Origin: an uncultured Butyrivibrio sp.
Lineage (GTDB): Bacteria; Bacillota; Clostridia; Lachnospirales; Lachnospiraceae
DNA length: 10,167 nucleotides
Direction: 5' to 3'
Assembly (NCBI GenBank): GCA_947169985.1
Contig: CAMVRW010000061.1
Coordinates: 1-10,167 of the forward strand
This document shows, in pieces, positions 1-10,167 of this stretch (position 1 is the stretch's first letter; every line of letters starts with the position of its first letter). A program made the translations under genes and the position numbers. Below the pieces are notes generated by a model. That model worked only from the letters and a program-made list of their open reading frames with translations, was not told the DNA's origin and searched no databases.

Positions 1-504
1 AAGTACAGAGCTATCGTATGGTCTATCCCGGCTCACTACTATGCGAACTTCTCCAACTGGTTTGCAAATTGCTGGGGTGTAGATATCCTGGTTGAGATGG
101 AGTCATTGAACTTCACAAAGCCACTGGAGACAGAGGATAAGGACGAGGCTCTTAAGGATCTGGCAAGACTCTACGAGCGAATGGTTATGAGACGTCATAC
201 CAACGGTGGATATGATCACGTAGTAACAGAGCTCTGGAGACAGTGCGAGGCCTGGAACGTAGATTTCGTTCTTATGTATCAGCACGTATCCTGTAAGAAC
301 ATGGCTACAGTGCAGGGACTTTTCGAGGATCAGGCAAGGGAGAGAGGCATCAAGCTTTTGTGGTGCAGCCACGATCTGATGGATCCAAGAACAGTTTCAA
401 GAAAAGACATGAGGGCTGAGGTAAATGAATTCATGAGAACTGTAATGAAGGCAGAGCCTGTAGACCCATCACTATTAGATTTCGAAGACGATACCACCTG
501 GTAA
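1..504 (+). CDS. 2-hydroxyacyl-CoA dehydratase subunit (HgdB/FldC-like), C-terminal part
   Basis: The open frame runs in from the left edge without a start; 167 residues are visible and end at TAA. They resemble the C-terminal domain of the 2-hydroxyglutaryl-CoA dehydratase D-component family (HgdA/HgdB, FldB/FldC, HadB/HadC). Visible family features are the LMYQHVSCKNM segment (residues 91-101), whose Cys in an H-x-S-C-K context is the likely [4Fe-4S] ligand, and the following GIKLLWCSHDLMDPR stretch (116-130), matching the usual 'gIPvL.ld.D..D' element before the C-terminal helices. In this family two related subunits, each with a [4Fe-4S] cluster, remove water from an (R)-2-hydroxyacyl-CoA through a ketyl radical, after one-electron activation by an ATPase activase. 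That activase is encoded 51 bp downstream. The substrate cannot be told from this fragment, and the partner subunit presumably lies outside the window. An internal ATG at 97 is not the start, because the frame upstream (KYRAIVWSIPAHYYANF) already reads as dehydratase sequence. Confidence 0.85.
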   Translation, partial: KYRAIVWSIPAHYYANFSNWFANCWGVDILVEMESLNFTKPLETEDKDEALKDLARLYERMVMRRHTNGGYDHVVTELWRQCEAWNVDFVLMYQHVSCKNMATVQGLFEDQARERGIKLLWCSHDLMDPRTVSRKDMRAEVNEFMRTVMKAEPVDPSLLDFEDDTTW

Positions 505-540
505 AGTTTTAGAGATATACAAAAAATGAATTTTGATTTT

Positions 541-546
541 AGGAGG
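541..546 (+). promoter_or_regulatory. Strong ribosome binding site of the activase gene
   Basis: AGGAGG lies 9 bases before the ATG at 556, a perfect Shine-Dalgarno match. It fixes the activase start. The 51-bp gap after the dehydratase stop shows no hairpin or clear promoter, so the two genes are probably co-transcribed. Confidence 0.85.
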
Positions 547-555
547 ATTTAAAAA

Positions 556-1350
556 ATGAAGTACTTTGGCGGATGTGATGTAGGATCAACCTACACTAAG
601 GCGGTGATCGTTGACGAGAACGGAAAGATGGTTGCTGGAACTACTGTCAAGAGCAAGATCATTGCACAGGAGTCAGCTGAGATAGCAATGAAAGAGGTTA
701 TTTCCCAGGTTGAGGGACTTAACAGCTCTAAGGATCTTGAGTATCTTATCGGTACAGGTTATGGACGTAATAAGGTACCTTTTGCTGATGAGAATATTTC
801 TGAGATTTCCTGCCACGCTATGGGCGTACATGTAACCAACCCATCAGTAAAGGCTATCATCGATATCGGTGGACAGGACGTTAAGGGTATCTCAATTGAT
901 ACTGACGGAACTGTAAAGAACTTTGCCATGAATGATAAATGCGCTGCAGGAACAGGACGTTTCTTCGAAGCTATGGCGCGTTCCTTTGAAATGAGTCTTG
1001 AACAATTCTCAAACCTTTCACTTTCAGCTAAGAACGTTATTCCTATCACAGCTCAGTGTACAGTATTTGCTGAGTCTGAGGTTATCACGCTCGTTGGTGA
1101 AGGAAAGCCTATGGATGAGATCGCAGCAGGTATCGAGATGGCTGTAGCAAAGAGATGCTTCGTAATGTCTAAGAAGGCTGGCGCTACAGATTCCATCACT
1201 CTTACAGGTGGATGTGCTAAGAATGCCGGACTTAAGGCTGCCATCGAGCAGGTACTTAAGCTTAAGGTTGTAGATCTTTCTATCGATCCTCAGCTCATGG
1301 GTGCACTTGGTGCTGCAGAGTATGCAAGACAGAAGGGCCTTGCAAAGTAA
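556..1350 (+). CDS. 2-hydroxyacyl-CoA dehydratase activase (HgdC-type ATPase)
   Basis: This 264-residue protein is full length for the CoA-substrate-specific enzyme activase family (HgdC, FldI, HadI; BadF/BadG/BcrA/BcrD ATPase superfamily), which uses the ASKHA (actin/Hsp70) fold. Visible motifs are the phosphate-1 loop GCDVGSTYTKAVIVD (residues 6-20), the phosphate-2 segment IDIGGQD (102-108), and the adenosine-side TGGCAKN (217-223). The two cysteines that would hold the single [4Fe-4S] cluster between subunits of a homodimer are C129 (NDKCAAGTGRF) and C168 (AQCTVFAESE). Known family members hydrolyse ATP to push one low-potential electron from ferredoxin or flavodoxin into the dehydratase. 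Here the activase follows the dehydratase gene, whereas in the Acidaminococcus hgdCAB cluster it precedes it. All key residues appear intact, so it is probably functional. Confidence 0.95.
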   Translation: MKYFGGCDVGSTYTKAVIVDENGKMVAGTTVKSKIIAQESAEIAMKEVISQVEGLNSSKDLEYLIGTGYGRNKVPFADENISEISCHAMGVHVTNPSVKAIIDIGGQDVKGISIDTDGTVKNFAMNDKCAAGTGRFFEAMARSFEMSLEQFSNLSLSAKNVIPITAQCTVFAESEVITLVGEGKPMDEIAAGIEMAVAKRCFVMSKKAGATDSITLTGGCAKNAGLKAAIEQVLKLKVVDLSIDPQLMGALGAAEYARQKGLAK

Positions 1351-1382
1351 TCTGACGTAATAGATGAAAGGATAATATAAGG

Positions 1383-1550
1383 ATGAGTAAGACGATTAAG
1401 ATCATTCTCAAAATATTTAAAATCCTTACCATTGTTACAGGAATTCTTTTTGTCATTTATTTCTGGAATCTTGACCAGAAGCTGATGGCCTGGGCTTATA
1501 CCCAGGTTAATAAGATATTCGACCGAAAGAAGGCCGATATCAAGTTCTGA
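1383..1550 (+). CDS. Small single-pass membrane protein, 55 aa, unknown function
   Basis: A short frame of 55 codons starts with ATG and is preceded by AAAGGA (1367-1372) at a 10-base distance. It ends in TGA one base before the next gene's leader. The protein has a Lys-rich N-terminus (MSKTIKIILKIFK), one hydrophobic helix of roughly 18 residues (about 14-29, ILTIVTGILFVIYFW), and a basic C-terminal tail ending RKKADIKF. I do not recognise a family. Its place between the activase and the AcsB-like gene, with a real ribosome binding site and only 32 bp of upstream gap, argues that it is a true gene of the operon. It might anchor one of the neighbouring soluble enzymes at the membrane, but that is a guess. 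A codon-level comparison across relatives would settle whether it is coding. Confidence 0.65.
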   Translation: MSKTIKIILKIFKILTIVTGILFVIYFWNLDQKLMAWAYTQVNKIFDRKKADIKF

Positions 1551-1552
1551 TT

Positions 1553-1558
1553 GAGAGG
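1553..1558 (+). promoter_or_regulatory. Ribosome binding site that selects ATG 1569
   Basis: GAGAGG sits 10 bases before the ATG at 1569. A TTG at 1551 opens the same frame, but this Shine-Dalgarno element lies inside that longer version and no comparable site precedes the TTG. ATG 1569 is therefore the preferred start of the AcsB-like gene. Confidence 0.65.
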
Positions 1559-1568
1559 TAATAGTTTT

Positions 1569-2279
1569 ATGAAGTTATATGACAATTTGATTGATGGAAC
1601 CATGGAGGAGCTTGAAAAGCTCCAGGGCAGGAAGATCTCTTTTGACCCGGCAAGTGCCTGGGAATGCCTTGAAAATACCGAGTTCATCATGCAAAGAGAT
1701 GCCGGACTTGAGCTGGGAGGCGCAGGAATGCCTTCGGTAAATTATACCTGTGTCACCACCTCCGGAAAGGTCTTGGAGGATGAGATCCTGGTTTATGGAA
1801 AAGACATAAGAGAGATAAAAGGAGATACTGCCTTTGCCAGGATAGTGATACTGGAGACGGAGGATCTTGGAGAGGACAAGGACCAGGAGAAGGCTTTTCA
1901 GGCCATCAGAAATCTGGAGTTTGTCAGATACCATGTTTTCCCCAAGGGATATATGGTCAGGGTTTCCTCCCAGAGCAATCAGGAACAGGTTCGTATCAGC
2001 AGCGCAGCTCTCAAAGGCGGAATCGATTTTGCCAGAGTTGGAGCAGCGTATATAAAGAAATATAAAGAAGTAAGCCAGGTCAGGAAGGTAAGAGTTATCT
2101 TCATTACTGACACTGAACTGGTGAAAGTCTTAAGTCCCAATGCGGATAAGGTCGATGCCATCACAAAGACACTGACCCATATCCTGGATGGACTTCCCAC
2201 AGATTGTGGTCACTGCAGCATGAAGCCTGTATGTGATGAGGTGGAGGGAATGAGAGAACTTCACCTTGGTAAAAAATAA
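1569..2279 (+). CDS. Stand-alone AcsB middle-domain-like protein (CODH/ACS beta-subunit family)
   Basis: The product has 236 residues from ATG 1569. Its residues from about 50 to 225 resemble, from memory of the Moorella protein, the middle (A2) domain of acetyl-CoA synthase AcsB. Shared elements are a GG-x-x-x-P start (50-55), an I-V-YGKDI turn (73-80), VRISSAALKGGIDFARVGA (141-159, compare AcsB 'LRVSKDAVAKGFRFKNYG'), and VRVIFITDTELVK (174-186, compare 'VQVTIFTDEAKVK'). It ends with a cysteine cluster C213-x2-C216-x5-C222. In AcsB the equivalent region gives the first A-cluster ligands (C-x2-C-x8-C-x9-C). Here the fourth cysteine and the whole C-terminal domain with the nickel-binding CGC motif are absent, as is the N-terminal CODH-contacting domain. 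It is thus unlikely to make acetyl-CoA. An Fe-S binding or electron-transfer accessory role for the neighbouring dehydratase or reductase is possible but unproven. Confidence 0.6.
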   Translation: MKLYDNLIDGTMEELEKLQGRKISFDPASAWECLENTEFIMQRDAGLELGGAGMPSVNYTCVTTSGKVLEDEILVYGKDIREIKGDTAFARIVILETEDLGEDKDQEKAFQAIRNLEFVRYHVFPKGYMVRVSSQSNQEQVRISSAALKGGIDFARVGAAYIKKYKEVSQVRKVRVIFITDTELVKVLSPNADKVDAITKTLTHILDGLPTDCGHCSMKPVCDEVEGMRELHLGKK

Positions 2280-2299
2280 AAGGAAAGGAAACGGCTCTA

Positions 2300-4363
2300 A
2301 TGAAAGAGGAATATCAATCACTCTTTACCCCATGGAAAATTGGGAATCTCGAGATCAAAAACAGAATCGTCTTAGCTCCTATGGGCGGAACCTGTATCTT
2401 CGGCTGGATGGAGCCAGGCGGAAGCCACTTCGATAAAGAAGCTGCAAGGCTTCTTCTTAAGATCGCTAAGCATGATTGTGGTCTTATTATTCCCGGTATT
2501 GCGCCTGTAAAGGACATGCTGGGCGGTAAGTGGCTCTATCAGAATCCACGCAAATTTGACGAACTTGCTGAGTTCATGGACCAGATCCATGCAACCGGTG
2601 CAAAGATGTTTGTGCAGATGACTGCAGGTTTTGGAAGAAGCTTTGCCCTCACAGCACCTCTTGCTATGTTGGCTAAGAATAAGGCCCTGAACACACTGGC
2701 TAAGCCCTATATCGACGCAGAGTATCTTACAGCTGCGCCATCAGTTCTTCCTAACAGATGGGCTGATGACGTAACAACCCGTGCCATCACGGAAAAAGAG
2801 ATCAAGGACATCATTTATGCATTCGGCGAGACAGCAAGACTTTGCAAGGAAGCCGGCGTTGATGGTGTTGAGGTTCACGCTGTTCATGAGGGATATCTTC
2901 TTGATCAGTTCACTCTTAAATATACCAACAAGCGTACTGATGACTATGGCGGATCCTTTGAGAACCGTTATCGTTTTGCGGTAGAGATCGTAAAAGAGAT
3001 AAAGAAGACCTGTGGAGAGGACTTCCCAGTATCTCTCAGATACTCAGTAAGATCCATGACCAAGGCGTTCCAGTATGGAGCTATGCCGGGAGAGGACTTC
3101 GAAGAGATCGGAAGAGATATGGAAGAGTCTGAGAAGGCGGCCAAGTATCTCCAGGATGCAGGCTATGATATGCTCAACTGCGACAATGGAACCTATGATG
3201 CCTGGTACTGGGCTCATCCACCGCAGTACATGCCACAGAACTGCAACCTTGAGGATGTGGAACATATCAAGAAGTTCGTTGATATTCCTGTTGTCTGTGC
3301 TGGAAAGATGGAGCCGGACGTTGGAGCAAAGGCCATCAAGGATGGTGGCATAGATGCCATGGCTGTTGGAAGACAGTTCCTGGCAGATCCTAAGTGGGTA
3401 TCTAAGTTAAAGAGAGATATGCCTGAGGAGATCAGACCTTGTATCTGCTGTCACTCAGCTTGCTTTAACTTAACAAAGCACAACGGAACAGCCAATGATC
3501 AGGATCTTACTGAGTCAGCCGGAATGTGCAAGTGTGCTGTTAACCCAAGAAGCATGCAGACCAAGAAGTACAAGGTTAAACCTACCAATAATCCTAAGAG
3601 AGTCGCTATCATCGGCGGCGGTATCGGAGGAATGGAGGCTGCAAGAATCCTCGCACTTCGTGGACATAAGCCTGAGATTTATGAAAAGACAAGTGAGCTG
3701 GGCGGTGTATTTATCGCAGCAGCTGCTCCTGAGTTCAAGGAGAAGGATAAGCAGCTCATTGCATGGCAGAAGTATCAGCTGAAAAAGCTGGGCGTAAAGA
3801 TCCACTTCAACTATGAGGTTAGAACAGACTCCCTTCCTTCAGCAGATGAATACATCATTGCTACAGGTGCTGAAGCCAACAGGATTCCTATCCCAGGCGC
3901 AGCTGAGTATGCTATGGATGCTACAGATTACCTTCTTGGTAAGAAGAGCGTTGGAAAGGATGTAGTTATTATAGGTGGTGGACTTACAGGATGTGAGATC
4001 GCACTGGATCTTTTCAGAAAGGGTAAGAACCCTCAGATCGTAGAGATGAAGGATGACCTTATTGCTGTAAAGAACATGTGCCTTGCAAATACCAGTTACC
4101 TTCGTGACTGCTTCAAGACCAATAAAGTTCCTGTTTATCTCAACTCTGGTGTTTCCAAGATTGATGAAAAGACAGTTGAGATTACTCTCAAGGATGGAAC
4201 AACAAAGGTACTTCCTGCTGATAACGTTATCATGTCAGTTGGATATCATCCGATTCCTCTTTTGCAGGAAGCTAAGAATGTTCATCTTCTTGGTGACTGT
4301 AAGAAGGTTGGTAATGTCCGTTCAGCCATCTGGGGTGCATGGGACATCGCCATGAAGATCTAA
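2300..4363 (+). CDS. Fe-S/FMN/FAD enoate reductase-like oxidoreductase (old yellow enzyme family)
   Basis: This 687-residue enzyme has the layout of 2,4-dienoyl-CoA reductase, 2-enoate reductase and BaiCD/BaiH. An N-terminal FMN TIM barrel (about 5-370) starts LFTPWKIGNLEIKNRIVLAPM, and carries VEVHAVHEGYLLDQF (190-204; H193 and H196 are the usual active-site pair) and NKRTDDYGGSFENR (210-223). A cysteine cluster for [4Fe-4S] follows (C381-x2-C384-x3-C388, then C412 in the typical CAVNP context). Next are an FAD-binding GxGxxG site (VAIIGGGIGGMEAAR, 435-449) and an NAD(P)H-binding one (VVIIGGGLTGCEIA, 555-568). Electrons would pass from NAD(P)H via FAD and the cluster to FMN, and then to an activated C=C bond. 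The spacing before C412 is longer than the roughly 11 residues in E. coli FadH, and there are extra cysteines at 383 and 410. AGGAAAGGAA (2281-2290) precedes the ATG. Position beside a dehydratase suggests the substrate is a 2-enoate or enoyl-CoA; the exact substrate is unknown. Confidence 0.9.
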   Translation: MKEEYQSLFTPWKIGNLEIKNRIVLAPMGGTCIFGWMEPGGSHFDKEAARLLLKIAKHDCGLIIPGIAPVKDMLGGKWLYQNPRKFDELAEFMDQIHATGAKMFVQMTAGFGRSFALTAPLAMLAKNKALNTLAKPYIDAEYLTAAPSVLPNRWADDVTTRAITEKEIKDIIYAFGETARLCKEAGVDGVEVHAVHEGYLLDQFTLKYTNKRTDDYGGSFENRYRFAVEIVKEIKKTCGEDFPVSLRYSVRSMTKAFQYGAMPGEDFEEIGRDMEESEKAAKYLQDAGYDMLNCDNGTYDAWYWAHPPQYMPQNCNLEDVEHIKKFVDIPVVCAGKMEPDVGAKAIKDGGIDAMAVGRQFLADPKWVSKLKRDMPEEIRPCICCHSACFNLTKHNGTANDQDLTESAGMCKCAVNPRSMQTKKYKVKPTNNPKRVAIIGGGIGGMEAARILALRGHKPEIYEKTSELGGVFIAAAAPEFKEKDKQLIAWQKYQLKKLGVKIHFNYEVRTDSLPSADEYIIATGAEANRIPIPGAAEYAMDATDYLLGKKSVGKDVVIIGGGLTGCEIALDLFRKGKNPQIVEMKDDLIAVKNMCLANTSYLRDCFKTNKVPVYLNSGVSKIDEKTVEITLKDGTTKVLPADNVIMSVGYHPIPLLQEAKNVHLLGDCKKVGNVRSAIWGAWDIAMKI

Positions 4364-4383
4364 ATAGCTATAGAAATAATTAT

Positions 4384-4418
4384 CCCCGCGCAGGTTAACT
4401 TTGCGCGGGGAGTTTTTT
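4384..4418 (+). terminator. Rho-independent terminator between convergent operons
   Basis: CCCCGCGC (4384-4391) pairs perfectly with GCGCGGGG (4403-4410) around an 11-base loop, followed by six T residues (4413-4418). It lies 20 bp after the reductase stop codon, so it ends the plus-strand operon. The T-tract runs into the TAA of the minus-strand cyclase gene (4417-4419). Read on the minus strand the same hairpin is followed by ATAATTATTT, a weaker tail, so it may also terminate the opposite operon. Confidence 0.9.
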
Positions 4419-6117
4419 ATAATCTGTTCTTGATTCCCAGTTCCTCATGCATCTTTCGCTTCATCTCATACATGCGCTGATCTGCAAGAAGGTAAACTTC
4501 GTGGGATGGAGATCCTTCAGGACACTCGTGTCTGAAGGCAAAGCCAGTAGCTACACTTCGTTGATACTCAGAGTAGATGGCGTTCATAACATTAAGGGCA
4601 CTGTTCATCCGCCCGATCATCTCTTCAACTTCGTTTTCTGTGGCTTCCTGAATGATTACCAGGAATTCGTCACCTCCAACTCTTGCACAGAATCCTTTTT
4701 CCTCAAATGAAGTGACAAGAACCTTTGAAAAGTCTTTGATGTATCTGTCGCCTGAAAGATGGCCAAATTTGTCATTTACCGTCTTTAAGCCGTTCAAGTC
4801 AACACTGACTATACAGTAGTCATTGTCCCCTTTGTTGAGATCCTCAAGGATCTTATCAGCTCTTGCTCTGTTTGGCATATTAGTAAGTCCATCTGCGTAA
4901 GCAAGGTGAGTAAGTGAAGCATATTCCTTGCGCTGAGCATAGGCCTGTGTCACATAGAGCATGTAGTTGGACAGCTGACACATTACGTAAATAAGACATC
5001 CACTATCTATGGCATTCATTGTCAAAGTATAGGAGTTAGGAATATGGAAGCCATCTAAAACATAGGCTACAAGGTGGATTATCTCAGCTACAGCAAAGGC
5101 TACAAGTCCGGCCATCTGGATCATCCCGGAAGGTGAGATATCTCTTTTGCGGACATTCCTTATAAAGAAGTATGACATAACAGCAAAACCAAAGACTGCA
5201 ACAATGTGGTAAAGCGGTAGTGTCACCCTCAGGTGGATATTAAAGATATAGTGAAGTATATATTGCAAAAGAGTAACGCCTGTGCTTATGAGGCCTGCAG
5301 TTATATAGAGTTTCTTCATTTCAATCTTCTGAATAAAGTACACCATAAGATAGCAGTAGGGCACGATCAGGTACATGGTAAAGTATTCAATCTGCGTCTC
5401 AAGTCTGGTGTAAATGAAAAGAGACATGAGATTGTAATAACTCATAAGCCAGGCAGCAAGGTTGGCACAGAACAGGGAGCCTACCATCAGACCTAATACT
5501 TCCGGTGTAGTGGGGGCATAAAACATAGTGATACACAGGAAGGCGATACCAAATATGAACAGGAACATACCTGTTGCAATTATGGCAAGGTGATCGTTGA
5601 CAAGTTTACTCTCTACATCCTGCTGGCTTCCAAGAATGATAGGGCTCAGGGTGTTAAAGGCATCGTTTTCTCCCACGGTCATCTTCATGGTGAATTCTTT
5701 CCCCTGATATTCCATTGGCAGAGAGATGAAGTGATACTGCTTTCCAATAAATTTGTCTTTCTCATACATATCAAGAGCGTAGCTGAATATCTCAGTGTCA
5801 TCTATGAAACACTCAAGAGTAGTATATCGGCTTCTGAAAAGAAGTGCAGGAAATGGGACACTTTCCTGGCTACTAGGGAGTGTGATTGAAAATGTAAGCT
5901 CATCACCATGGCGAAGCTTCTCTCCGTCAAGGATCTTATAAAACTCAGAGAGCTTCACATTATCAAACTGGTCGTCATTGATAGTGACCTTCCAGCCATC
6001 GTCTATAGAAATAAGCTCATAGGCTGGCTTAAAGACAAGACAGGTGGATATGAGCCAACTTACAAACATTGCGATCAATAGTGAACAGATGATGGAGATC
6101 AAACGTTTATGCTTCAT
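4417..6117 (-). CDS. Multi-pass membrane diguanylate cyclase with extracytoplasmic sensor domain (second of pair)
   Basis: The 566-residue product has an N-terminal membrane helix (about 7-28), a beta-rich extracytoplasmic domain (30-172) and about seven further helices (roughly 176-199, 205-228, 244-264, 270-291, 299-319, 332-354, 366-388). A GGDEF domain (about 400-560) follows. This is the layout of 7TMR-DISM-type receptors, where an outer jelly-roll domain senses a ligand. The cyclase signature is intact: ADGLTNMPNRA (408-418), VDLNGLKTVNDKFGH (439-453, with metal-binding D440) and GGDEF (481-485). It should condense two GTP to c-di-GMP. The inhibitory RxxD site expected at 472-475 reads EEKG, so simple product inhibition there is unlikely. 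ATG 6117 follows AAGGAGGT (6126-6133) and overlaps the stop of the preceding paralogue by 4 bp (ATGA). The ligand is unknown. Confidence 0.88.
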   Translation of the reverse strand: MKHKRLISIICSLLIAMFVSWLISTCLVFKPAYELISIDDGWKVTINDDQFDNVKLSEFYKILDGEKLRHGDELTFSITLPSSQESVPFPALLFRSRYTTLECFIDDTEIFSYALDMYEKDKFIGKQYHFISLPMEYQGKEFTMKMTVGENDAFNTLSPIILGSQQDVESKLVNDHLAIIATGMFLFIFGIAFLCITMFYAPTTPEVLGLMVGSLFCANLAAWLMSYYNLMSLFIYTRLETQIEYFTMYLIVPYCYLMVYFIQKIEMKKLYITAGLISTGVTLLQYILHYIFNIHLRVTLPLYHIVAVFGFAVMSYFFIRNVRKRDISPSGMIQMAGLVAFAVAEIIHLVAYVLDGFHIPNSYTLTMNAIDSGCLIYVMCQLSNYMLYVTQAYAQRKEYASLTHLAYADGLTNMPNRARADKILEDLNKGDNDYCIVSVDLNGLKTVNDKFGHLSGDRYIKDFSKVLVTSFEEKGFCARVGGDEFLVIIQEATENEVEEMIGRMNSALNVMNAIYSEYQRSVATGFAFRHECPEGSPSHEVYLLADQRMYEMKRKMHEELGIKNRL

Positions 6118-7877
6118 GAGCGTTTACCTCCTTCATCCAATAGCTTATTAACAAGGTCATCATAAAGACGCCCCAGAGACTGCTGATGATGTTTGCCCTT
6201 CATGGTATACATGCGTTGGTCGGCCAAAAGATATACATGCTGGGCATCAGCACCAAATCTAAGATCCTTATCTTTGCTGGAGGCATAGCCCCAGGAGGCA
6301 GAGAAACGAAGCCTTGATTCAGAGGCGTTTCTGTGCTCCATAAGATCAGTGAGACAATCGATGTCCCTCTGAGTGCGCTCATCATCCACGAAAGGCAGTA
6401 CTACGATAAATTCATCACCGCCCATTCGGCCTACTAGAGAAGCGTCAGTGAAGCTGTTTTTCAGCATTTGTGAAAAGCCATTCAGGAGCTTGTCACCCTG
6501 ATCATGGCCATAGTTGTCATTGGTATATTTCAGATAATCCAGATCCAGACTGATGATAGTGTAATCGCCGCTAAGCTCAGCCAGTACCACTTCACACCTT
6601 GATCTGTTGGACAGGTCTGTCAGGGCATCAGTGTAGGCAAGACCTTCCAGCTGGGGCTTTACTGTGGATTCGTTAATATACTCTATGCAGTGGTAGAAGT
6701 AATGCAGGAGCAGACACATGATAAATACAAGGGCTCCTATGGTGGTGAAGTTTATATGGGAATTGATCTCTCCAATCTTTGTAAACTTCATGATATTAAA
6801 CTTTATGATGTCTGTGACAGCACAGAACAGGAATAATATCAGACCAAAAATAAGAGTGTTGGTGGAGGTAATGGAGAGTTTGTAGTCAAATTCATTTTTT
6901 CTGGAATCAGCTACTGTTATGAAAAGAGACGTGATAAGGAATATGCCTTCACATAGACCGATGATGTGAAGCCACGAAACAAAGTTACAGATATGTGCAA
7001 TGCGAGCAATATGCAAAAGGGTCGTTGAAAAAGCAAATATGATGTTTATGACAAATAACGCTATTGCTGTACGCCTAAACTTGGACCGACCTGCAAGAAT
7101 GACAAATCCAAGAATAGAAGCCGGGATCATGTAAAGTGAGAAGTATTCTACAAAGGTATAGAAAGAAGGACTGTCAGAGATATACCAGAATACATCGTTG
7201 TAGCAAAGGATGTACACACCCATCATAACTGATGTAACAGCTGCAGGGAAAATGCTGAAGTCGTGGTTGTCGGCAAAGGCAAGGAACGGTGCCAGAATAA
7301 GAAGCATGAATCCAAGATGGCACAGATATACACCGATTACCATAGAAAGACGGGTGGACTGAACCAGATTATTTTTCAGATCGTTGTAGTTGCCAAACAA
7401 AACCGGTGAGAGGCCGGAAAAGGCATTGTTCTCACAGGCAGTTATCTCAATGGTGATGGTTTTTCCGGAGTAGTCCTCAGGAAGCTGAACAAAGTTAAGC
7501 ATCTTAGGGAGCATCCAGTTGGTATCAGCATAGTGTTGGCCGTAGGAGTAGATTTCTTTTCCGTCTACAAAGACTTTAACAGTAGAAAGAATGGTGCGAA
7601 ATCTGATGGTTGCAGGGGATAGGTCTGAAACAGGAAGAGTTCTGGAAAGGGTAATGGTTTCACCCATATTAATAATTCCAATGTTGGATTCCTTGACACT
7701 ATCAAGCTTCCAGGTCTTTTCTCCACGACTAACAGTCCAGCCGTCATCCAGCTGGACTAATTCATACTGATAAGGCGTATTAAAATTTTGATTACCAAGT
7801 ACCAGAAGTGATGCACCAAAGACTATCACTGCCAGCACCGACAATAAAGCTGTACGGATCTTTACAGTTAAATTCAC
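6114..7877 (-). CDS. Multi-pass membrane diguanylate cyclase with extracytoplasmic sensor domain (first of pair)
   Basis: The 587-residue product is built like its downstream neighbour: an N-terminal helix (about 8-28), an outer beta-rich domain (30-172), about seven helices (roughly 176-200, 207-227, 243-263, 270-290, 298-323, 338-358, 377-397) and a GGDEF domain (about 410-565). The two are paralogues, sharing YEL-x3-DDGW-x-V near residue 40, CENNAFSGLSPVLFG (148-162) against GENDAFNTLSPIILG, and a LLADQRMY-x-MK end. Catalytic motifs are intact: YTDALTDLSNRS (415-426), LDLDYLKYTNDNYGH (444-458) and GGDEF (486-490). The RxxD inhibitory site position (477-480) reads TDAS, so it is missing. 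The start is GTG, supported by a perfect AGGAGG 9 bases upstream. It follows the TPM gene by 20 bp. Ligand and output are unknown; c-di-GMP synthesis is a firm family-based prediction. Confidence 0.88.
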   Translation of the reverse strand: MNLTVKIRTALLSVLAVIVFGASLLVLGNQNFNTPYQYELVQLDDGWTVSRGEKTWKLDSVKESNIGIINMGETITLSRTLPVSDLSPATIRFRTILSTVKVFVDGKEIYSYGQHYADTNWMLPKMLNFVQLPEDYSGKTITIEITACENNAFSGLSPVLFGNYNDLKNNLVQSTRLSMVIGVYLCHLGFMLLILAPFLAFADNHDFSIFPAAVTSVMMGVYILCYNDVFWYISDSPSFYTFVEYFSLYMIPASILGFVILAGRSKFRRTAIALFVINIIFAFSTTLLHIARIAHICNFVSWLHIIGLCEGIFLITSLFITVADSRKNEFDYKLSITSTNTLIFGLILFLFCAVTDIIKFNIMKFTKIGEINSHINFTTIGALVFIMCLLLHYFYHCIEYINESTVKPQLEGLAYTDALTDLSNRSRCEVVLAELSGDYTIISLDLDYLKYTNDNYGHDQGDKLLNGFSQMLKNSFTDASLVGRMGGDEFIVVLPFVDDERTQRDIDCLTDLMEHRNASESRLRFSASWGYASSKDKDLRFGADAQHVYLLADQRMYTMKGKHHQQSLGRLYDDLVNKLLDEGGKRS

Positions 7878-7886
7878 TGAATAAAT

Positions 7887-7892
7887 CCTCCT
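7887..7892 (-). promoter_or_regulatory. Strong ribosome binding site supporting a GTG start
   Basis: Read on the minus strand, AGGAGG lies 9 bases before GTG at 7877-7875. This position fixes the non-ATG start of the first cyclase and lies in the 20-bp gap after the TPM gene's stop. Confidence 0.85.
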
Positions 7893-7897
7893 GCTTT

Positions 7898-8776
7898 TTA
7901 AAAGTGTCCGTGGCTACCTCCATGGCTTGAGCCGGAACTGGAGGAGTGGGTGGAGCTTCCGCCACCAAAGGAGCTTCCCCTGCTTCCGCTATCGGTATCT
8001 TTAGGAATAGGAGTCTTGGTCACCTGGGTACGAACGAAAGTATCCCGGTTGACATTCAGCTTCATTCCGCCTTTGGCTTCATAGTTGGCTGCGTTGGTAG
8101 CAGTCTTTACAGTCTTAAGCTGAGACTTCATATGAAGAACAGGGAAAAGAGCTACTACCAGACCAATAACGATACTAATAAGGAGCATACGTACAATATC
8201 GGCACTTGTCCTGGGCTCCTGATAGCCTACGTCATAGGCTTCTCCTTCTTCGTCCAGTGCAAGGTAGTAGTCGCAGGTTTCAGCATATGCATTAAAGGCT
8301 CCGCTGTAATCGCCATCCCTTAAATAGGGCATCATGTTGTCCATCATGCGACTCTGACCATAATCAGTAAAGGTCTGAATTGCTGAACCGTAGGTGCCAA
8401 TAGCCCATTCCCGGTCAGCCATACTGAGCATAAAGAGAATTCCGCTGTTATAGTCTGTGCCAAAGCCATTGTAGTCGAAATAATCGTCTGCGTAGTCCTG
8501 AATTGGTCCGTTATGTGAATCCACTGTGAGAACCACGATATTACAACTCCACTGTTCACTGAGGCTATCCAGCTTGCGCAAAAGATCTGCTTCCTCACTG
8601 TCAGAAAGAAGATCGGCGTTATCCAGGAGCCTTTCTTTTTGTCTGGTTGAGGGAACCTCATAGCTGTCCCAAAGAACGTCTGCAGCAAAAGTGTTTACAG
8701 GTAAAAGCAGTACAAGGATCAGGAACAGTAAAATGGCTGAAGCTGTCTTGTTTTTATATTTTAATAATGTATTCAT
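7898..8776 (-). CDS. TPM-domain membrane protein (YdjH/YgcG-like) with Gly/Ser/His tail
   Basis: From ATG 8776 the product has 292 residues. A signal peptide (1-31, a long Leu-rich helix ending NTFA before AD) is followed by a TPM domain (about 45-175). Recognisable segments are LLDNADLLSDSEEADLLRKL (50-69), CNIVVLTVD (78-86), YADDYFDYNGFG (95-106), NSGILFMLSMADREWAI (110-126) and YLRDGDYSGAF (151-161). A transmembrane helix (about 193-213) leads to a cytoplasmic region and a low-complexity tail (263-292) rich in Gly, Ser and His and ending HGHF. Proteins of this layout include B. subtilis YdjH, which works with YdjG, YdjI and PspA at the membrane; the biochemical role of the TPM domain there is unclear. 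A TTG at 8788 would add four residues but has no Shine-Dalgarno before it; ATG 8776 has a weak TGGAT (8783-8787). It lies 21 bp after the zinc-ribbon gene. Confidence 0.85.
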   Translation of the reverse strand: MNTLLKYKNKTASAILLFLILVLLLPVNTFAADVLWDSYEVPSTRQKERLLDNADLLSDSEEADLLRKLDSLSEQWSCNIVVLTVDSHNGPIQDYADDYFDYNGFGTDYNSGILFMLSMADREWAIGTYGSAIQTFTDYGQSRMMDNMMPYLRDGDYSGAFNAYAETCDYYLALDEEGEAYDVGYQEPRTSADIVRMLLISIVIGLVVALFPVLHMKSQLKTVKTATNAANYEAKGGMKLNVNRDTFVRTQVTKTPIPKDTDSGSRGSSFGGGSSTHSSSSGSSHGGSHGHF

Positions 8777-8797
8777 TTTATTATCCAATCAATTTGA

Positions 8798-9859
8798 TCA
8801 GCTGACGAGCAACATTATTGCAAATGCGATGGCGGCCACAATTCCTGCAATAGGGAAGTAGTACTTTGCTGCCTGAGAGTAGCTGACAGGCAGATTACCT
8901 ACAAACTTACCGGTCTGACCATTCATGGCAAAGAGGTAGTTGTTCCCTTTCCAGGATGTGTTAAGGATATAGACAGGATACAGAGCATACTTGTTGCTCT
9001 CGTTGCTGCTGGTACAACTTTCGTTAAGGGTTCTAAGGGAGTTGTATCCAACTACAGTGTTACGGAAGTTGGTGGTAGCTGTGGCCTTCATTCTGTCCAA
9101 AGCTTTGCCCTTATCCTCCTCGGCGGTAACGTTGTATTTGTTTGCAAGGAAACCAGCCAGATATCCCATGTTAAAGGGAACCATAGCCGATCTGTCGAAG
9201 GGTTCTATGGATTCCATAAGGTCATCGGGCATTTCCTTTGAGCCATCCTCAGGAACGTGCTCAAATTTCTCTGATCCGGCTCTTTCTATGTTGTAATAAC
9301 TTGTTTCAGTATAATTGTATCGGGAGTCACTCCAGGTCTTTATCTTGGTTCCCTCGAAGCTGGCACTGTAGTTCTCGGTTGCTGAAAAGAGCCAAAAGGG
9401 CACATAGATCCCCTTTATCTCATCGATGTGGTTCTGGTCAGCAAAGACCTTCGGAAGGAGCTTCTTGGATTTGACATAACCTGAATAAGCCTTCATGGCA
9501 TCATCCTTCGTCTTAGTGAAAGGAATGATGTAGTCAGGCGTGAACTTTCCGGTAAATTTCTCTTTTACCACTACATTATTACTGCAGAAAGGACATTTCA
9601 TGGAACCAAGAGATTCAGTAGCCAGGATCTCACCACCACAGGAACCGCAGCTGTAGATGAACATTGGGGTGTCATCTTTATCTGTGGCCTGGGTGGAGTA
9701 GTTTTCCGCAGATTCTCCTGTGCTGTTGGAATTATGGTTGGCCACGTAGTCCTTAACATCAAACTCCGAGTCACAGAAAGGACATTTGAGCTTTTGTGAC
9801 TTTGGATTGAATTCCATTGCCCCGCCACAGGCGGGGCATTCATATTCGTGAAGGGCCAT
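8798..9859 (-). CDS. Membrane-anchored double zinc-ribbon protein (YdjG-like, TFIIB-type zinc ribbon)
   Basis: The 353-residue product starts with two zinc ribbons: C8-x2-C11 with C26-x2-C29, and C71-x2-C74 with C89-x2-C92. An acidic, Asn/Ser-rich linker (about 40-65) separates them. A soluble region (about 100-330) has GIYVPFWLFSATENYSASFEG (150-170) and YPVYILNTSWKGNNYLFAMNG (294-314), segments typical of this family; the C-terminus is one transmembrane helix (about 334-352). Such proteins are often labelled 'TFIIB-type zinc ribbon' or even 'PriA helicase', but there is no helicase domain. By layout and neighbours (SPFH-like gene before, TPM gene after) it matches the role of B. subtilis YdjG, a membrane partner of YdjH and YdjI. 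ATG 9859 follows AAAGGA (9867-9872) at 7 bases. Confidence 0.8.
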   Translation of the reverse strand: MALHEYECPACGGAMEFNPKSQKLKCPFCDSEFDVKDYVANHNSNSTGESAENYSTQATDKDDTPMFIYSCGSCGGEILATESLGSMKCPFCSNNVVVKEKFTGKFTPDYIIPFTKTKDDAMKAYSGYVKSKKLLPKVFADQNHIDEIKGIYVPFWLFSATENYSASFEGTKIKTWSDSRYNYTETSYYNIERAGSEKFEHVPEDGSKEMPDDLMESIEPFDRSAMVPFNMGYLAGFLANKYNVTAEEDKGKALDRMKATATTNFRNTVVGYNSLRTLNESCTSSNESNKYALYPVYILNTSWKGNNYLFAMNGQTGKFVGNLPVSYSQAAKYYFPIAGIVAAIAFAIMLLVS

Positions 9860-9882
9860 TTATTTATCCTTTGAAAAAGTTA

Positions 9883-10167
9883 TCAGTTGGGTCTTGGTGA
9901 TCCACACTGTGTGCAGAAGTTTCCTGTGTTAACAGTTCCGCAGGAACATGTCCATCCGGCTGCAGGTCTCTGGGATCCACAGTTAGGGCAGAAATTACCT
10001 GTGTTGACATTGCCACATGAGCATGTCCAGGAATTTCCTGCTGACTGAGGTGCCATCTGAGGAGTTGCCTGAGGCTGCTGCTGAGCGCCCATGGCGAAGA
10101 GCTGCTGCGCGTTCATTCCGCCAGCCTGCTGAGCCATGTTCATTCCTGCAAAGGCCATCATAGGACC
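9883..10167 (-). CDS. Probable SPFH-domain protein (YdjI-like), C-terminal end with two zinc ribbons
   Basis: The open frame enters from the right edge, so the gene is partial; 94 residues are visible, beginning GPMMAFAG. The ATG at 10161 is internal, as the frame continues upstream without a stop. The visible part is a Met/Gln/Ala-rich linker (about 3-45) followed by two near-identical zinc ribbons, each W-T-C-S-C-G-x-VNTGNFC-x2-CGS-x-RP. A Gln/Met-rich linker and terminal zinc ribbon are common at the end of SPFH (band 7/flotillin-like) proteins of the YdjI group. The SPFH domain itself lies outside the window, so the call rests on this tail and on the YdjG-like and YdjH-like genes that follow. 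Alternatives are another zinc-ribbon protein with a Gln-rich linker. The gap to the next gene is 23 bp. Confidence 0.6.
   Translation of the reverse strand, partial: GPMMAFAGMNMAQQAGGMNAQQLFAMGAQQQPQATPQMAPQSAGNSWTCSCGNVNTGNFCPNCGSQRPAAGWTCSCGTVNTGNFCTQCGSPRPN
9889..10029 (-). repeat. Tandem 66-bp zinc-ribbon coding repeat
   Basis: Two 22-codon units (10029-9964 and 9954-9889, read on the minus strand) are separated by nine bases coding Ala-Ala-Gly. At protein level they differ only at a few positions (N/T, P/T, N/Q, Q/P); at DNA level they are less alike, implying an old internal duplication. Each unit has four cysteines in C-x-C and C-x2-C pairs, a complete zinc-binding set. Confidence 0.85.

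Follow-up and report, generated by a model that had tools for sequence, protein, structure and literature searches.

A YdjI-YdjG-YdjH-type membrane platform without PspA neighbours a tandem pair of predicted receptor diguanylate cyclases across Butyrivibrio

We found that a tandem pair of predicted receptor diguanylate cyclases, GGB and GGA, has apparently become fixed, in one of its copies, behind a PspA-free YdjI-YdjG-YdjH-type (YdjIGH) membrane platform in Butyrivibrio; among the new points raised by this locus, this is the most solid. The neighbourhood of platform and cyclases is real and has been kept across many species of the genus, and from this adjacency we infer that the two may be functionally coupled. 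Our overall description, for which we put the chances at about even, is of a PspA-free YdjIGH platform standing beside a possibly heterodimeric receptor-cyclase pair, with which it is probably co-transcribed in the lineage of the DNA analysed here. That DNA, hereafter the window, is a complete contig of 10,167 bases from a draft genome estimated to be 66.85% complete.

Five consecutive minus-strand genes had been described in an earlier note on this DNA. All five were confirmed, in the transcription order SPFH tail, YdjG-like, TPM, GGB and GGA, and their tight, operon-like layout is present in the window. The YdjG-SPFH gap is 23 bp, the TPM-GGB gap 20 bp and the GGB/GGA overlap 4 bp; the claimed range of 20-23 bp for the gaps also covers the YdjG-TPM junction if an ATG start is used (21 bp), and fails there if translation begins at a TTG four codons earlier (9 bp). 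Between the convergent GGA and flavoenzyme genes lies an intrinsic-terminator-like hairpin (4383-4411), a 12-pair stem followed by a T run. The plus-strand genes of positions 1-4363 encode the tail of a 2-hydroxyglutaryl-CoA dehydratase D-type subunit, an acyl-CoA dehydratase activase, a CdhC-like protein and an OYE/BaiCD-like flavoenzyme, possibly a reductive CoA-ester pathway convergent to the five-gene set.

The proteins of the platform resemble the ydjI, ydjG and ydjH products, as had been proposed, on the evidence of Pfam matches, hydropathy and relatives. An open reading frame that runs off the contig end (9883-10167, minus strand) encodes the C-terminal 94 residues, with zinc-ribbon repeats, of a YdjI-like SPFH protein, of which only this part is visible because the window ends with its contig and the N-terminal part lies beyond. 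The stub itself had no Pfam match, and its probable SPFH identity comes from full-length relatives: all three tested (L014, L050 and L059) matched PF13421 Band_7_1 (E 6e-22 to 3e-20), a family that also matched in the B. subtilis control. The SPFH tail suspected earlier is thus borne out, and the gene upstream carries in these relatives the domain whose lack would have told against it. The YdjG-like protein (8798-9859, minus strand) has two putative N-terminal zinc ribbons, for which Pfam matches were sub-threshold throughout, and a single, C-terminal membrane helix predicted from hydropathy (hydrophobic segment 330-353); set against the features that define YdjG, namely two zinc ribbons, an NTF2/YpeB-like domain and a TM helix, the window shows the sub-threshold zinc-ribbon matches and the TM helix, and fold searches with the middle domain gave no informative match. 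The YdjH-like protein (7898-8788, minus strand; PF04536, E 4.8e-31; two hydrophobic segments) consists of a signal/anchor helix, a TPM domain, a TM helix and a Gly/Ser/His-rich tail, and has PDB relatives 7tbr and 2kw7.

Behind the platform follow GGB (6114-7877, minus strand; PF00990 GGDEF, E 1e-24) and its paralogue GGA (4417-6117, minus strand; PF00990, E 4e-25), which are 28% identical over 544 columns. GGB comprises an N-terminal TM helix, an extracytoplasmic beta domain at about residues 34-165, seven TM helices and a GGDEF domain whose active-site motif is intact and which lacks an RxxD I-site. Hydropathy segments over threshold numbered nine in GGB and seven in GGA, and the structure model of GGB places seven long helices (176-415) between the beta domain and the GGDEF domain, in addition to the N-terminal helix. 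The model thus has a 7TMR-DISM-type layout, in which seven TM helices follow an extracytoplasmic domain and precede a cytoplasmic signalling domain, and no 7TMR-DISM family was among the Pfam families listed (E 0.01; also E 0.001). There was no meaningful PDB sequence match, the fold-search matches listed were taken up by the GGDEF domain, so that the extracytoplasmic domain gave nothing informative, and the five plasmid matches listed for GGB were all below 30% identity. Scored by alignment columns, the catalytic residues were invariant in 53 of 53 aligned GGA sequences, the window included, and in 25 of 25 GGB sequences, linked and unlinked. Both proteins therefore combine the GGDEF fold with an intact GG(D/E)EF motif and the metal/GTP residues, and both are predicted to be active cyclases.

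GGDEF domains must dimerise to join two GTP, so the pair most likely forms a heterodimer, or else two homodimers made together. Each of GGB and GGA formed one clade (SH-aLRT 100, 70 rows). Among 25 unlinked pair loci, hand-picked from match lists rather than drawn at random, 21 carried GGB then GGA, overlapping by longest-ORF starts; this order was found in 19/19 loci inside the genus and 2/6 outside it, where the GGB relative stood alone in the other four of six. The GGB-GGA pair is therefore a self-contained unit, autonomous of the platform within Butyrivibrio. The window's own genome holds a second pair on a 3.9-kb contig free of platform genes (L217, contig C261). Five further loci (L082, L083, L226, L227 and L236) form a related clade of pairs; in L082 and L083 the pair stands between what we take to be the start of a glycoside hydrolase-like protein before it and an apparently HypF-like gene after it.

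We then asked how widely the two modules adjoin. YdjG-like relatives occur in all but one of the genus's 79 genomes, and 73 ydjG loci were fetched from 72 genomes other than the window's (G040 twice), leaving aside five genomes with weaker matches (G037, G056, G057, G064 and G078) and one with none (G059). The genes for SPFH, zinc-ribbon, TPM, GGB and GGA proteins followed one another in this order on one strand in 53/73 loci, a few of which had the SPFH or GGA end cut by the contig, and the recurrence of this order makes the arrangement more than chance. YdjG identity to the window ranged from 51 to 80% among the 53 linked relatives, so the adjacency reaches far beyond this genome and its closest strains, to which it might have been restricted; it is confined to one genus as examined. 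In one further locus (L059; G035, 11227-11470) the SPFH-ZnR-TPM block is inverted in place and diverges from GGB-GGA across a gap of about 242 bp. The platform had no pair behind it in 19/73 loci, and in G072 the pair was located elsewhere (L053, L080). Linked and unlinked states required three changes on the YdjG tree, from which L077 and L078 dropped out. Searching named genomes for the YdjG-like protein gave 56 loci, all in Butyrivibrio, with 51 linked, B. proteoclasticus and B. hungatei among them; these overlap genomes already counted and are not independent.

At the level of the family, a YdjG relative at E 1e-30 was present in 210 of 299 genomes (298 genera). We fetched loci for 60 of the best-matching among these 210, of which one (L141) lacked a YdjG call, leaving 59 readable. 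No GGDEF gene directly adjoined ydj in any of the 59, three of which were cut downstream (L090, L092 and L142); in two loci a GGDEF gene lay farther away, two genes upstream (L091) or several genes downstream (L139).

Within Butyrivibrio, the platform-linked pairs form two clades on the tree of joined pairs. In a careful tree of 25 pairs, none of 200 bootstrap trees united the linked pairs as one clade, and such a clade was rejected with 44 rows (p-AU 1.9e-5) and with 25 rows (p-AU 2.5e-8). Admitting L220, an unlinked pair beside the second clade, gave p-AU 0.039, and admitting both L220 and L080 as copies that had left the platform gave p-AU 0.089, at which one origin was not rejected; the choice of these two for the one-clade tests was made with the tree already in view. 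Platform and pair may have been joined twice, the pair behind the platform may have been exchanged for another, or copies may have moved out of that position.

Neighbouring junctions served as a control for the stability of this linkage. Upstream of the SPFH gene, a divergent RACo-like ATPase gene was found in 44 of the 48 linked loci with an uncut upstream side. On the YdjG tree, the RACo junction changed five times and the TPM/GGB junction three times over the same 57 rows (six and four times over all rows). For the junction to the right of GGA, the linked loci showed no fewer than 12 changes, a lower bound because neighbours that belonged to no family were grouped by strand. The GGDEF linkage is therefore far stabler than the downstream junction and slightly stabler than that with the apparently unrelated RACo-like neighbour. 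Since a gene with no obvious functional connection is linked almost as stably, conserved order alone is no proof of function. To the right of GGA in L050 (1348-4515) and similar second-clade loci lies a convergent trio encoding a solute-binding protein, an HD_5 protein and another GGDEF protein, the domains having been determined in L050 and the gene families being common to the other loci.

The gap between TPM and GGB bears on whether the locus is a single operon, as the earlier note had it. In the window, this 20-bp gap (7878-7897, minus strand) contains a strong ribosome-binding site, AGGAGG, and our scan of it gave no promoter-like and no terminator-like site; a promoter between 7877 and 7900, which would have spoken against a shared transcript, was accordingly not seen. 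With GGB starts set by the conserved N-terminus, the gap could be read in 52 linked relatives; L045 was dropped for want of the anchor motif, though its gap holds TATACT. Promoter-like TATACT was present in the gap of 33 of the 52. It occurred in all 31 gaps of at least 70 bp (dinucleotide shuffles: mean 2.9, maximum 9), and 17 of these also had a terminator-like hairpin, each time together with TATACT (shuffles: mean 0.15, maximum 1). Among the 21 shorter gaps, two had TATACT and 19 had neither site. L011 exemplifies a short gap, of 17 bp, and L039 a gap with both kinds of site. The single-operon claim thus suits the window and 19/52 relatives and does not hold generally, since sites in 33/52 gaps suggest, for the majority of linked species read, that the pair is transcribed as a separate unit. 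Long and short gap states required six changes on the tree. In the window's subclade, 14 of 15 linked relatives lacked either site, the exception being L007, with a 93-bp gap and TATACT, and the contiguous layout of the window is one of several collapsed forms. TATACT also remains upstream of GGB in L059 despite the inversion there.

A second sequence element, T(G/A)TGNGA(A/C)AATA, precedes the SPFH gene in 39/39 loci of clade 1, the window's clade (for example L010, L025 and L043), and in 0/20 others. It was found in none of 52 stretches upstream of GGB, so no shared control of platform and pair is visible through it. This element could be an unusual promoter or an operator. A search for a regulon with AAATGTGCGAAAATA gave 17 matches in seven genomes at one mismatch, seven of them in one genome, and no clear regulon emerged; the 15-base form, again at one mismatch, occurred once in four of the seven genomes and 2, 4 and 7 times in the others. 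Riboswitch-based shared regulation was likewise set aside, as a single tRNA was all that passed threshold in eight sources (the window and seven loci).

PspA, the partner of the B. subtilis platform, was largely missing. In the genus, matches at E 0.001 occurred in 10 of 79 genomes, and the one over cut-off lay inside a 693-residue frame; the window's own incomplete genome gave no match. The same search matched in 9 of 14 control genomes, B. subtilis included. Among 60 family genomes with the platform, PspA exceeded cut-off in eight and never adjoined ydj, the nearest, in G251, sharing a contig with ydj at a distance of about 17 kb. We therefore discarded PspA as a missing partner. A pspA gene just beyond the right edge of the window, as had been anticipated, is not what relatives carry there, the RACo-like gene being their usual upstream neighbour (44/48 uncut linked loci), and the description of the platform as tied to PspA envelope stress is undercut by how commonly it occurs without PspA in genus and family. 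The locus is accordingly not a Psp system as defined by PspA/IM30 in the operon or genome.

We propose that the locus joined two older modules. The platform, of YdjI-YdjG-YdjH type, would be an SPFH protein with two membrane proteins that work without PspA in this genus; the tandem receptor-cyclase pair, GGB then GGA in overlapping frames, would sense something outside the membrane and make c-di-GMP. Copies of the pair would have spread around Butyrivibrio genomes, and one of them would have settled permanently behind the platform. In the majority of the linked species that were read, the pair keeps a promoter-like element of its own; in the window and nearly all its subclade the gap has dwindled to hardly more than a ribosome-binding site. 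Such a shrunken gap would put platform and cyclases on one transcript, and c-di-GMP output would then rise whenever the platform is induced; the pair's own promoter-like elements in 33/52 relatives argue against any need for a single transcript. An envelope-to-c-di-GMP circuit of this kind is plausible, with adjacency as the evidence for it.

The two modules may instead be neighbours by inheritance only, a view that we take seriously while placing it somewhat short of an even chance. The pair would have landed early and stayed as the RACo-like gene did, the two modules doing unrelated jobs, with read-through replacing a lost promoter in the window's subclade. The comparable stability of the RACo junction (five changes against three, same 57 rows) fits this well, as do the promoter-like and terminator-like sites that many linked relatives keep for the pair, its occurrence in other contexts, the lack of a GGDEF gene directly beside ydj in the 59 loci of other genera (three cut downstream), and the 19/73 genus loci with no pair behind the platform. 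Harder to reconcile with mere inheritance are the junction right of GGA, which changed at least 12 times against three for TPM/GGB, the L059 inversion, which kept both modules adjacent, and the two clades of linked pairs, for which one passive event is a less simple explanation.

By analogy with B. subtilis, the SPFH/YdjG/YdjH scaffold might physically bind the cyclases in PspA's place, so that membrane state would gate local c-di-GMP synthesis, an idea close to that of the earlier note. According to PMC8581546, YdjI and PspA depend on YdjG and YdjH to reach the membrane, and two-hybrid interactions are reported among the YdjG, YdjH, YdjI and PspA proteins. Conserved adjacency, the lack of a convincing PspA in the genus, and membrane segments in the YdjG-like, TPM and both GGDEF proteins are consistent with such a complex. 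Across the family, however, PspA passed cut-off in only 8/60 platform genomes and the pair stood beside the platform in 0/59 loci, so the platform needs neither, and the pair itself occurs without a platform beside it; we consider the complex improbable. The boldest reading treats GGB and GGA as a heterodimeric c-di-GMP receptor that is always paired in Butyrivibrio; a PspA-free SPFH platform would have enlisted it, perhaps on two occasions, joining membrane care and a c-di-GMP signal in one circuit. We consider this reading rather unlikely.

If the modules are coupled, PspA-free SPFH/TPM platforms, apparently common in the family (210/299 genomes), would gain a signalling output, and membrane state would be linked to c-di-GMP in rumen Butyrivibrio. 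The conserved GGB-GGA pair would also offer a clean case for asking whether membrane GGDEF receptors act as heterodimers.

In the open-access literature, we found nothing joining the TPM domain with GGDEF, nothing on a platform-cyclase theme by title for flotillin with diguanylate cyclase, nothing relevant among the matches listed (title, abstract start) for phage shock protein with diguanylate cyclase, and no c-di-GMP study of Butyrivibrio; a paper on Butyrivibrio genomes mentions GGDEF at one place (PMC6912079). The ydj genes came up together with zinc ribbons, TPM or SPFH in three papers, PMC8581546, PMC9239133 and PMC11237479. Neither 'GGDEF' nor 'diguanylate' occurs in the main text of PMC9239133 and PMC11237479. 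Passages of the latter, a Firmicutes Psp survey, describe a band-7 protein with a zinc ribbon, a double-zinc-ribbon protein and a TPM protein in one operon; there these operons are PspA partners, whereas most of the carriers that we examined have no PspA. The locus resembles B. subtilis pspA-ydjG-ydjH-ydjI in its PF13421-type SPFH protein, zinc-ribbon membrane protein and TPM membrane protein, and differs from that operon in having no pspA, in its order I-G-H, and in the receptor-cyclase pair that follows. For the cyclases, PMC6107284 describes 7TMR-DISM GGDEF receptors, which share with the GGB model an extracytoplasmic domain, seven TM helices and GGDEF; examples are NicD and RgsP of Sinorhizobium meliloti, a 7TM c-di-GMP protein tied to cell-wall growth that also has PAS and EAL domains. 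Unlike those receptors, GGB and GGA have no 7TMR-DISM match among the Pfam families listed, and in Butyrivibrio they represent two different types arranged in tandem.
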